Shown here: positions 61,518 through 64,000 of the stretch, piece after piece
Layout of the letters: the number at the start of each line of letters is the position of its first letter
Position numbering within the stretch: the first letter of the stretch is position 1
Source: an uncultured Draconibacterium sp.
Lineage (GTDB): Bacteria > Bacteroidota > Bacteroidia > Bacteroidales > Prolixibacteraceae
DNA length: 64,000 bases
Assembly: GCF_963677155.1 (NCBI RefSeq)
Contig: NZ_OY781884.1
Coordinates: forward strand, 3,592,501 to 3,656,500
Direction: 5' to 3'
Notes under the pieces: model-generated
Database searches by the model: none
Told to the model about the DNA's origin: nothing
Seen by the model: the letters and a program-made list of their open reading frames with translations, nothing else
Position numbers and translations under genes: made by a program

Positions 61518-61525
61518 TACATTTG
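61518..61525 (+). promoter_or_regulatory. -7 element for the sulfite-reduction operon leader
   Basis: TACATTTG, TAnnTTTG match; the TTG upstream (61500-61502) is 15 bases away, a little short. It precedes the Cys/Met leader ORF by about 45-70 bases. Confidence 0.5.
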
Positions 61526-61530
61526 TGGTG

Positions 61531-61546
61531 TGTGATAAAAGTCACA
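61531..61546. promoter_or_regulatory. Crp/Fnr-type palindrome
   Basis: TGTGA (61531-61535), six bases, TCACA (61542-61546), an exact match to the TGTGA-N6-TCACA consensus. It lies at the expected start point of the cys-leader transcript, where binding would repress; it could also act on the divergent EF-G2 promoter about 300 bases away. Two Crp-like genes are in the window. Confidence 0.5.
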
Positions 61547-61567
61547 TAGGAATAATTTTAAAGCACA

Positions 61568-61657
61568 ATGGTTAATACTTTCTCTAAAATAACAATGATG
61601 AAAATGACATGTATGATGTGTATGTGTTGTGATGTTATTGTTGTGCAGAGGAACTGA
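61568..61657 (+). CDS. Cys/Met-rich leader peptide
   Basis: A small ORF with three in-frame ATGs (61568, 61595, 61598) ending at TGA 61655-61657. From the second ATG it is 20 residues, beginning MMKMTCMMCMCC: six Met and four Cys in the first 12, an extreme use of these two amino acids. The downstream genes make siroheme and sulfite reductase, which supply sulfide for cysteine and methionine. The coding end (61643-61652) can pair with the 5' arm of the terminator behind it. The peptide itself need not act; the stalling of ribosomes on the Cys/Met codons would be the signal. Confidence 0.72.
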   Translation: MVNTFSKITMMKMTCMMCMCCDVIVVQRN

Positions 61658-61701
61658 CCGTAGATTGAAAATATTACTCGATTTGAAAGGCTCTTCTGTA
61701 T
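61643..61701 (+). promoter_or_regulatory. Possible antiterminator pairing in the cys leader
   Basis: Bases 61643-61652 (end of the leader ORF) can pair with 61692-61701, the 5' arm of the terminator, by about 10 bp with three G-U pairs. This competes with the terminator. Paired by hand; energies were not calculated. Confidence 0.45.
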
Positions 61702-61722
61702 TTGCAGAAGGGCTTTTTTTTT
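61686..61722 (+). terminator. Attenuator terminator before the sulfite-reduction operon
   Basis: 13-bp stem with two wobble pairs (61686-61698 with 61705-61717), 6-base loop, and a run of nine T (61714-61722). It stands upstream of the first operon gene, not after a gene, so it is an attenuator candidate. Confidence 0.75.
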
Positions 61723-61768
61723 GAGATTGATCCAGAAACAGATTGATATTTAAACGGGAATATGGCGT

Positions 61769-62020
61769 ATGGCAAAAGAAAATGGAGATATAGTTGAGCG
61801 TAAACGAAGGAGTATCGTAAAAACGATCTCCTGGCGTACGATTGGCACCATCGATACCATTCTGATTTCGTGGTTTGTGGTGGGCGATATAAATTTTGCA
61901 GTTACCATCGGCGGTGTCGAGCTCTTTACAAAAATGACATTATACTTTTTTCATGAACGTGCCTGGAACAAAATCAGCTTCGGAAGGGTTAAATATACAC
62001 CAATTGAATACGAAATTTAA
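61769..62020 (+). CDS. DUF2061 membrane protein
   Basis: 83 residues. KRRSIVKTISWRTIGTIDTILISWFVVGDINFAVTIGGVELFTKMTLYFFHERAWNKI is the DUF2061 core, with two short hydrophobic segments (about 26-42 and 43-60). These small proteins often sit at the front of cysteine or sulfate-assimilation operons. The function is unknown. It is the first gene after the attenuator and ends 5 bases before the siroheme-synthase gene. Confidence 0.85.
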   Translation: MAKENGDIVERKRRSIVKTISWRTIGTIDTILISWFVVGDINFAVTIGGVELFTKMTLYFFHERAWNKISFGRVKYTPIEYEI

Positions 62021-62025
62021 ACAGT

Positions 62026-62475
62026 ATGGCAGACAAGAATTTTTTACCAATAGCAATTGATATTACCAACCAGAAAATACTGATTGTTGGTGGCGGAAAG
62101 AGTGCTTACAGCAAGCTGAAGATTTTGCAGCGCCACAATGCCGAGGTTGAAATACTGGCCATTGATGTATGCGACGAAATAAAAAACAGCGGAGTGAAAT
62201 ATATTGAAGTACCATACGACAGAAAGTATTTAAAAGACTATTTAATGCTTTATTCCTGCTCGAATAACGAAGAGCTCGACCGGCAAATTGAAAGGGACTG
62301 CCGCGAAGAAAAGGTATTAGTTAATATTCATGATAAACCATCTCGCTGTCAGTTTGTTTCTCCTGCTATCTACCGACATGGAAAAATTTCGGTGGCGGTA
62401 AGCTCGAATGGCGAGAATGTTTATGAATCGATAAGAATACGAAATTTAATAAAAGATAAGTTGCAACTAGATTGA
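62026..62475 (+). CDS. Precorrin-2 dehydrogenase / sirohydrochlorin ferrochelatase-type protein (CysG N-terminal part)
   Basis: 149 residues. An NAD-binding Rossmann start (KILIVGGGKSAYSKLKILQRHNAEVEIL) followed by the family core (VNIHDKPSRCQFVSPAIYRHGKISVAVSSNGENVYESIRIR), typical of the Met8/CysG-B domain, which oxidises precorrin-2 and may insert iron to give siroheme, the cofactor of sulfite reductase. It stops after about 150 residues, so the uroporphyrinogen methyltransferase and the C-terminal helix domain of longer relatives are absent. In an operon with the CysJ-like gene below. Confidence 0.88.
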   Translation: MADKNFLPIAIDITNQKILIVGGGKSAYSKLKILQRHNAEVEILAIDVCDEIKNSGVKYIEVPYDRKYLKDYLMLYSCSNNEELDRQIERDCREEKVLVNIHDKPSRCQFVSPAIYRHGKISVAVSSNGENVYESIRIRNLIKDKLQLD

Positions 62476-62516: not shown

Positions 62517-64000
62517 ATGAGTTTAAAAACAAATCCATTAAATGATGCACAGTTGAGTGCTTTAGGCCAGTTGGTTGAAGGCTTGAATAAGGAGCAGACT
62601 GTATGGTTGAATGGTTATTTTGAAGGGCGGTTGGCAGCCCTGGGAGGCGTAGACGTGCCAGGTGTTGGAGGTACAACAGTAAGTGCAGCGGCGGCCCCAC
62701 CACCCCAAAGTGCTATTAAGCTTACCATTTTATATGGTACCGAAACCGGACATTCGCAGGGACTGGCCGAAAAATTAGGAGAGAAAGCTTCGTTTAAAGG
62801 AATTGATGCCCAGGTTTTGAGTTTGTACGATTACAACTACAAAAAGCTGAACGAAGAAGATAATGTAGCCATAATTGTTAGTACGCATGGCGAGGGCGAT
62901 CCGCCGGATATGGCTGAAGATTTTTACAAATATGTAACCGGGCCGCGCGCGCCTCAGCTTGATGGAGTAAACTATTCGGTGCTGGCGCTTGGAGATAAAA
63001 CGTATAAACATTTCTGTAAAACCGGCGAAGAAATTGATGAGGCTTTAAAAAGCCGCGGTGGTTACCGCGTTACGCAAGCTGTAAAATGCGATGTGGATTA
63101 CGAACAGCCATCGGAAACGTGGATGAACCTATTTTTATTGAATCTTACACCGGCCGAAACATCGGAGCCTGTTGTTGCAGGAGCGTCAACAGCATCAGTG
63201 TCGGGTAATGGAGCCGGAGGATTTGGCGAAGAGTTTTCGAAATCAAATCCATACATGGCAACGGTGTTGGAGAAAGTTCGGATTACCGGAAGTGATTCAG
63301 ATAAGGAAGTGTATCATGTTGAACTTTCGCTGGAAGGATCGGGATTGGAATACGAACCGGGCGATTCATTGGGGATTTTTACCAAAAACCCCGAAGCACT
63401 GGTGGGAGACATTTTGGCCTTTACCGGTTTCGACCCGGAGCAGAAAGTTGATATTGAAGAGGAGGAGTATAGCATAAAGGAAGCTTTGTCTCACCATCTT
63501 GAAATTACATTGTTGACTTTTGATCTGCTGAATAAATATCAGGAGAAAACAAAGAATGCTGAACTCGCCAAATTGCTTGCCGACGATGAAGCGCTCGATG
63601 CATATTTGTATGGCCACGATGTGCTCGACTTGCTGGAAGATTATCCGTACGAGTGGAATGCGCATAAGCTGGTTGAAGTGTTGCGCCCTATTCCGCCACG
63701 TTTGTATTCCATCTCATCAAGTATGGAAAGTGTGGGAGAAGAAGTTCATGTAACCGTTTCGGTTGTGCGCTACGAGCGTAAAAACCGCAAACGCAACGGA
63801 GCATGTTCGTCGCACCTGGCCGACAGTATTGAGATTGATGAACAAATACCGGTTTATATCGATAAAAATCCGTCGTTTAAATTGCCTGCCAACGGATCGA
63901 AAATTATTATGGTTGGTGCCGGAACGGGTGTCGCTCCGTATCGTGCTTTTATGCAGCATCGCGAGAGTTTGGGGATTAAAGGGGAGTCGTGGTTGTTCTT
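62517..64000 (+). CDS. cysJ: Sulfite reductase flavoprotein subunit (alpha), 3' end outside window
   Basis: 494 codons are visible, and the frame runs open to the window edge. A Thr/Ala/Pro-rich N-terminus leads into a flavodoxin domain (ILYGTETGHSQGLAEKLGEKA; STHGEGDPPDMAEDF; LALGDKTYKHFCKTGEEIDEAL) and an FAD-binding domain with RLYSISSS (about 400) and CSSHLAD, then GAGTGVAPYRAF of the NADPH-binding part begins near the edge. It passes electrons from NADPH to the sulfite-reducing hemoprotein, presumably encoded further right. Starts at ATG 62517, 41 bases after the siroheme gene. Confidence 0.94.
   Translation, partial: MSLKTNPLNDAQLSALGQLVEGLNKEQTVWLNGYFEGRLAALGGVDVPGVGGTTVSAAAAPPPQSAIKLTILYGTETGHSQGLAEKLGEKASFKGIDAQVLSLYDYNYKKLNEEDNVAIIVSTHGEGDPPDMAEDFYKYVTGPRAPQLDGVNYSVLALGDKTYKHFCKTGEEIDEALKSRGGYRVTQAVKCDVDYEQPSETWMNLFLLNLTPAETSEPVVAGASTASVSGNGAGGFGEEFSKSNPYMATVLEKVRITGSDSDKEVYHVELSLEGSGLEYEPGDSLGIFTKNPEALVGDILAFTGFDPEQKVDIEEEEYSIKEALSHHLEITLLTFDLLNKYQEKTKNAELAKLLADDEALDAYLYGHDVLDLLEDYPYEWNAHKLVEVLRPIPPRLYSISSSMESVGEEVHVTVSVVRYERKNRKRNGACSSHLADSIEIDEQIPVYIDKNPSFKLPANGSKIIMVGAGTGVAPYRAFMQHRESLGIKGESWLF

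Follow-up and report, generated by a model that had tools for sequence, protein, structure and literature searches.

How is the synthesis of sulfide and siroheme controlled in Bacteroidota, where, to our knowledge, the control of sulfur assimilation is poorly described? The question is raised by a 64,000-nucleotide stretch of DNA from an uncultured Draconibacterium sp. (hereafter the window). Near its end, a preliminary description had noticed a short ORF with Cys and Met codons and a hairpin in front of genes for DUF2061, siroheme synthase and a sulfite reductase flavoprotein. We examined this locus, its counterparts in the family Prolixibacteraceae, and similar leaders in the class Bacteroidia.

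A leader ORF and terminator before sulfite reductase genes

The gene assignments of the preliminary description held. The first structural gene encodes a DUF2061 membrane protein (61769-62020; PF09834, 1.8e-21; this and all other stranded features of the window are on the forward strand). It is followed by cysG(N), the siroheme synthase N-terminal domain of the precorrin-2 dehydrogenase type (62026-62475; TIGR01470, 1.1e-25, above the cut-off), and by cysJ for the sulfite reductase flavoprotein (62517-64000; TIGR01931, 8e-153, below the model cut-off), which is cut by the window end. The complete cysJ encodes 607 aa and is followed past the window end by cysI (locus L158; TIGR02041, 804 bits), then by a gene whose only matches are weak and epimerase-like, and by cobA for uroporphyrinogen-III C-methyltransferase. 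The operon is thus one of assimilatory sulfite reduction plus its cofactor, making sulfide and siroheme.

The promoter-like sequence noted earlier is present as TACATTTG (61518-61525), a candidate promoter of the leader transcript read from the sequence, which we take to be a −7 box of the TAnnTTTG type used in Bacteroidota. It lies 42 nt before the ATG of the leader ORF, MVNTFSKITMMKMTCMMCMCCDVIVVQRN (61568-61657), whose 29 codons include four for Cys and seven, the start counted, for Met. The Cys codons (61610-61612, 61619-61621, 61625-61627 and 61628-61630), with Met codons interspersed, make up the putative control codons at 61610-61630. The TGA stop was read at 61655-61657, as described before. 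An internal ATG at 61598 would give a 20-aa version of the peptide, and the earlier account had left the length at 20 to 29 residues; the ORF stood, and the conserved start proved to be ATG 61568, giving 29 aa.

An intrinsic terminator, GAAAGGCTCTTCTGT-ATTT-GCAGAAGGGCTTTTT (61685-61718, T-run 61714-61722), follows the ORF stop after a gap of 27 nt. A consensus terminator scan of the window returned 0 terminators and missed this hairpin at 61685-61722. Folding of the terminator region gave −24.5 kcal/mol (z −3.8; 0/200 shuffles equally stable), in agreement with the T-tailed hairpin first placed at 61686-61722. The 5′ arm GAAAGGCTCTTCTGT (61685-61699) is designated segment 3, and the 3′ arm with the T-run (61704-61722) segment 4. 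Segment 2, GTGCAGAGGA at the end of the ORF (61643-61652), is the 5′ strand of an antiterminator, pairing with TCTTCTGTAT (61692-61701) in a duplex of 10 pairs, 3 of them G.U; this pairing had been worked out by hand and was correct. RNA truncated before the 3′ arm folded into the antiterminator (−19.7, z −3.7; 1/200 shuffles equally stable). To the two states first proposed we add segment 1, TTTCTCT early in the ORF (61579-61585), for which 7 pairs are possible with AGAGGAA (61647-61653) in the antiterminator strand. Segment 1 of the window is weaker than elsewhere in the family, being matched by 34/200 codon shuffles, and its pairing was not used in the ribosome-free fold of the window leader.

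Our main reading, to which we give a probability of about 0.8, is that of a ribosome-mediated transcription attenuator sensing cysteine supply, and it presumes translation, stalling, a response to Cys and kinetic trapping. RNA polymerase would start just 3′ of TACATTTG, with a ribosome following on the leader ORF. When Cys-tRNA is scarce, the ribosome would stall at the MCMCC codons and leave segment 2, about 14 nt ahead, free to pair with segment 3 while segment 4 has yet to be transcribed; with 2:3 formed, the terminator would not arise and the sulfite-reductase/siroheme operon would be transcribed. With ample Cys, the ribosome would reach the stop and cover segment 2, and the 3:4 terminator would form. 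If the ORF were untranslated, segment 2 could, in much of the family, be sequestered by segment 1, a step that is unsupported for the window's leader.

Conservation of leader and pairings in the Prolixibacteraceae

The preliminary description had proposed a search upstream of cysJ/cysG-type genes in related genomes. When the DUF2061 protein was searched against 140 family genomes, a match was found in 68, and 64 orthologue-like DUF2061 loci (L082-L144 and L013), the window's own included, formed the family set. A leader was present in 57 of the 64. One script applied to 60 of these loci yielded 53 leaders with terminator, and L091-L093 and L140 were added separately. L140 carries a poly-Cys leader, MNIQKLHTASCCSCTFMCMMCCCCCM, with a terminator and no clear segment 2 visible. 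No leader was found within the 400 nt inspected upstream at the other seven loci (L114, L138, L139 and L141-L144); Cys-containing frames that the script put out for L138 and L142-L144 were judged non-leaders. None of the seven distant DUF2061 paralogues (L145-L151) had a leader. At L005, L006 and L091-L093 the operon has an additional first gene, whose end directly adjoins DUF2061, and the leader is located ahead of that gene, at a distance of about 1 kb.

Among the named carriers are the two nearest named relatives found, D. mangrovi and D. sediminis, and also D. aestuarii, D. orientale, Maribellus sediminis, M. maritimus and Mariniphaga sediminis. The genes cysG(N) and cysJ lie 3′ of DUF2061 in 13/13 named carrier loci, and cysI lies there too in 12/13, the contig ending first in the remaining one. 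In D. orientale (G041; L013, 5001-5250) the DUF2061 match is split into two overlapping pieces, residues 1-65 and 53-83, so that the gene may be frameshifted there; the leader and cysG(N)-cysJ-cysI are present despite this split.

Both the Cys/Met codons and the hairpin were conserved across the family, features whose loss among relatives had been named as speaking against the preliminary description. Three consecutive Met/Cys residues occur in all 53 leaders, MCMC in 44/53 and CMCC in 34/53. The mean Cys content is 3.8, with just 1 or 2 in 5/53 leaders; internal Met number 3-8 in all 53, and the mean for Met is 5.3. Cys is encoded by 178 TGT and 26 TGC codons. The distance from ORF to terminator is 19-36 nt across the 53 listed leaders. 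A TAnnTTTG box lies 24-46 nt 5′ of the leader ATG in 46/53 loci, compared with 11 such boxes in a total of 7950 nt lying further upstream.

We scanned 1.6 Mb, both strands of the window plus 80 named loci, for the combination of ORF and terminator. The 14 matches (the window and 13 named loci) all stood before DUF2061-cysG(N)-cysJ, with 0 off target and 0 on reversed sequence; the remaining 67/80 named loci, with titles mostly of Campylobacterota, Flavobacteriaceae and other groups, had no such leader. On this specificity, a plain terminator accompanied by a chance ORF was rejected.

The stretch between promoter box and ORF offers a further element. A perfect CRP/FNR-family-like palindrome, TGTGATAAAAGTCACA (61531-61546, no strand assigned), lies 5 nt 3′ of the −7 box across the presumed start site and is a candidate operator outside the attenuator. 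It was kept at a match of at least 12/15 in 21/53 leader loci. Such conservation could favour a reading in which the ORF is incidental, the hairpin a plain terminator or an attenuator controlled by protein or RNA, and the CRP-like site the real regulator. However, the ORF is retained in the 32/53 loci where the match falls below 12/15, its Cys codons include both TGT and TGC in the family and class-wide (97 and 59, respectively), and the 1.6 Mb scan found ORF and terminator together nowhere but in front of sulfur genes. We therefore hold an incidental ORF to be very improbable and retain the ribosome-mediated attenuator; the palindrome points to an additional control of the operon, at the level of DNA, in the window's group. 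TGTGAN6TCACA occurs at only 3 sites genome-wide, this one included (backward pattern 0), and of the other two, one is inside an open frame and one is upstream of a gene adjoining a cytochrome-oxidase-like frame, named by eye.

Many family ORFs end in codons such as ATG CAG AAG G, the letters of the terminator 3′ arm, which makes the ORF end and this arm alternative partners of the 5′ arm CCTTCTG. In these leaders TCTTCTG, complementary to the ORF end, is found near the ORF start (codons of SSE/TSV), and the best segment-1 site has the same ORF position in 47/53 leaders. Segments 1 (early ORF), 2 (late ORF), and 3 and 4 (terminator) would thereby make up a trp-like arrangement. These pairings also bear on whether the ORF product could have a function of its own, for instance as a small Cys-rich peptide that binds metal, as its conserved Cys-rich sequence might indicate. 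The conserved QK/QR end is accounted for by RNA pairing, the length and flanks are variable, and each of the 53 ORFs has, 19-36 nt on, a terminator pairable with its coding RNA; we give a functional peptide hardly any credence.

Of two leader alignments, A1 holds 42 of the 53 leaders after a redundancy filter, and A2 holds 22 of these with one codon spacing of segment 2, the window's genus being left out; A2 was aligned by MAFFT without structure information. In A2, 96.5% of cells were paired for 2:3 vs 29.8-60.7% when slid, and 91.3% for 1:2+3:4 vs 37.2-60.3% when slid; 1:2 alone was paired in 89.9% of cells in these 22 leaders outside the window's genus group. Cells changed on both sides numbered 11 (2:3) and 24 (1:2+3:4), numbers that 0/500 shuffles reached in either case, with independent events being fewer than cells since related sequences share changes. 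Counted as pairs, changes on both sides amounted to 2 for 2:3 (reached by 410/500 shuffles) and 6 for 1:2+3:4 (15/500), and further pair types were reached by 328/500 and 101/500 shuffles, respectively. In the covariance check proposed at the outset, the antiterminator pairing is maintained, in some places through compensatory changes; the number of 2:3 pairs changed on both sides does not go beyond shuffles. Much of the signal lies in column 102, which covaries with both its partners: U there faces A in segment 1 and G/A in segment 3, and G faces C/U in either segment. In the anchored 2:3 count of all 53 leaders, the window's genus included, the position beside CAG was G with C/U in 34 and U with G/A in 17; because segment 2 was anchored on an in-frame CAG-like motif, the core pairs are partly true by construction, and the flanking positions are not.

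Ribosome geometry and comparison with known attenuators

Segment 2 begins a median of 14 nt after the last Cys codon in the 53 leaders (14 in the window), and its end lies a median of 11 nt before the stop (2 in the window). The RNA left uncovered by a ribosome was folded, on the assumption that coverage ends 12 nt beyond the first base of the A-site codon. For a ribosome holding the last Cys codon in its A site, and with segment 4 absent, the 2:3 antiterminator formed in 51/53 leaders; for one that had reached the stop codon, the terminator folded in 53/53. In this folding, the geometry that had been supposed for stalled and terminating ribosomes fits. When the whole RNA was present, the terminator was still more stable in 53/53 under a stalled ribosome; the antiterminator must therefore form first and persist, and the switch must be kinetic. 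With neither ribosome nor segment 4, 1:2 formed in 24/53 and 2:3 in 28/53, the window among the 28. Because 1:2 formed in only 24, an untranslated ORF need not mean termination, and the folding model does not support here the textbook step of no readthrough in the absence of translation.

The trp and his attenuators of Proteobacteria consist of a short ORF with control codons, followed by antiterminator and terminator before the first pathway gene. Similarly, the present leader has a short ORF with codons for the product amino acid, here Cys, before cysJI and siroheme genes, an intrinsic terminator between ORF and first gene (61685-61722 in the window, and in each of the 53 leaders), and an antiterminator exclusive with the terminator. 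It differs in its Cys (with Met) codons and its host in the Bacteroidota, in having the control codons between segments 1 and 2 with segment 2 inside the ORF, and in the weakness of the protector 1:2 pairing in the window's genus. Except for a clear protector hairpin in the window's genus, those features of the trp/his logic first suggested that sequence can test are present. Cysteine-responsive attenuation has reportedly been found in mycobacteria, with leaderless ORFs (Canestrari et al. 2020). In contrast to those leaderless polycysteine ORFs, the leader in the window has a putative −7 box 42 nt before the ATG and a strong terminator.

Cys-codon leaders are known in other phyla. The uORFC-8-2 upstream of cysS in Rhodobacterales is a conserved uORF with tandem Cys codons, two of them conserved and usually at positions 14-15, and a terminator, for which Cys-tRNA sensing was proposed (PMC8632094). 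It precedes a cysteinyl-tRNA synthetase gene in Alphaproteobacteria, unlike the window leader, which precedes DUF2061-cysG(N)-cysJ-cysI and is of other structure. Runs of Cys codons in leader peptides before cys genes are described for Mycobacterium, Propionibacterium and Bifidobacterium, the mycobacterial leaders showing no conserved terminator hairpin (PMC1262725). Within Bacteroidota, leader-peptide attenuation was suspected before amino-acid operons of Flavobacterium psychrophilum (PMC9723704) and leader-peptide attenuators were suspected in Bacteroides (PMC7366714); the accessible parts of these two sources do not name Cys attenuation and Cys leaders, respectively.

At the gathering score, Rfam 15 gave 0 matches in the window, and the best weak match in the leader region scored 25.3 bits vs a gathering score of 54; a described Rfam element (riboswitch, T-box or known leader) was rejected on this ground. 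The preliminary description knew of no widely described Cys/Met attenuator in Bacteroidota, and the matches listed from the open literature likewise included no Cys attenuator in this phylum. Lopatovskaya 2010, said to compare attenuators across bacteria, could contain this case. The mechanism is classical; its Cys version in Bacteroidota is without earlier report among the matches listed.

Cysteine-rich leaders in the class Bacteroidia and the nature of the signal

We extended the search to 395 genomes of the class with covariance model R1, and inspected 30 fetched loci and three more stretches. The class-wide R1 E-values were not trusted, since a limit of 0.01 makes 130/395 genomes "match", in many cases through plain terminators. 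The pattern ATGTGYATGTGYTGY gave 54 matches in 49/395 genomes, compared with 10 for the backward pattern. Cys/Met leaders were found ahead of metY, of metZ (identified from a 60-residue fragment only) and of NirA-type genes, which are sulfite/nitrite reductase-like. Candidates in the window's own genome were not borne out: TGYATGTGYTGY, a pattern for other MCMCC-type leaders, had 6 matches vs 5 backward, the remaining five being no leaders on inspection, and a second R1 match (49.6 bits) was an ordinary terminator.

A census of NirA-type genes gave 95 places in 94 of the 395 genomes. Five were dropped as contig-edge, partial or distant, and 90 were examined, two of them with an upstream stretch shorter than 900 nt. 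Within 900 nt, 28/90 had a Cys-rich leader and a terminator, in tandem in nine cases, and 62/90 had no leader within that distance; reversed sequence of the loci gave 0 leaders. The figure of 28/90 misses some, since G332 was scored as a miss though a tandem Cys leader sits further up, before an aldo/keto reductase gene. A script was used to call the class-wide leaders, of which at least the one at L255 (54 aa) is a doubtful ORF. From the Cys leaders we infer that the NirA-type reductases act on sulfite, not nitrite; the models show the shared family only.

The region after the Cys codons was compared with the terminator arm of the same leader, one L309 leader with ambiguous bases being left out of the swap test. 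Pairing was better with the own arm, at a mean of 16.6 vs 12.35 with arms swapped in from other loci (p 1.3e-6), and vs 11.2 when shuffled (p 8e-10). For individual leaders, segment-2/3 complementarity beat at least 95% of shuffles in 17/36 and did not in 19/36, the poly-Cys leader of L310 being among the latter; some of the best duplexes fall in the spacer, not the ORF. The four-segment logic is therefore well supported in the family and only partly in the wider class.

These leaders bear on the signal, for which the preliminary description had named Cys and Met together. Both kinds of codon are conserved, and the poly-Cys leaders elsewhere point to Cys over Met. CCC occurs in 17/28 class-wide leader loci, which makes Cys rather than Met the likely signal. 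The same attenuator sensing Met-tRNA, or both, instead of Cys-tRNA would agree with the alternating MCMC core, the internal Met of all 53 family leaders, the five with only one or two Cys, and the related leaders ahead of metY and metZ. Against this, some of the loci with CCC are poor in Met (e.g. CCCMCCCC, MCCCC), and in the window the CC pair lies closest to segment 2, where it is best positioned to decide its fate. A role of Met in place of, or alongside, Cys thus appears unlikely to us.

Stalling might also reside in the peptide itself, a Cys/Met-rich nascent chain arresting the ribosome by sensing metal, redox state or a sulfur metabolite in the tunnel. MCMC is indeed retained in 44/53 family leaders, and a peroxiredoxin gene lies downstream of one class-wide leader; outside the family, however, the residues around Cys vary widely while Cys richness persists, which fits codon sensing and not a tunnel-binding sequence. 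We judge an arrest peptide to be quite improbable, and cysteine sensed through its codons remains the likely signal.

We lean slightly towards a broader view, that sulfur assimilation in Bacteroidia is under a general, hitherto undescribed control by Cys-codon leader attenuators, often in tandem pairs, which would serve both kinds of sulfite reductase, metY and metZ and fill the role that CysB, T-boxes or S-boxes have elsewhere; tandems may give steeper or graded control. A cysteine attenuator readable from sequence would make sulfur-assimilation control directly testable and would explain where the sulfite-reductase operon is switched. Annotation gains a recognisable family, a short Cys-rich ORF with a terminator, and the many copies and tandem arrays are a good natural series for attenuator evolution. 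The leaders are also further evidence for an origin or spread of Cys attenuation in Bacteroidota, besides Actinobacteria and Alphaproteobacteria.

Tandem Cys leaders, each with its own terminator, were seen at L222, L226, L239, L254, L258, L260, L269, L270 and L309, the nine census cases, and further tandems at L166 and L169, where the gene that follows is an aldo/keto reductase gene in one case and metY in the other. At L187 (position 1320, reverse strand) a Cys-rich leader ORF ending in SNCCCMMCV is followed by a terminator and the peroxiredoxin gene. When 20 leader loci were searched with Rfam, the only match was a SAM-II riboswitch (RF01726) away from the leader, at L168 (978-1084, reverse strand). 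It lies on the opposite strand, within the 1 kb that precedes a metY gene with a Cys/Met leader, so that two kinds of sulfur RNA control adjoin at this locus.
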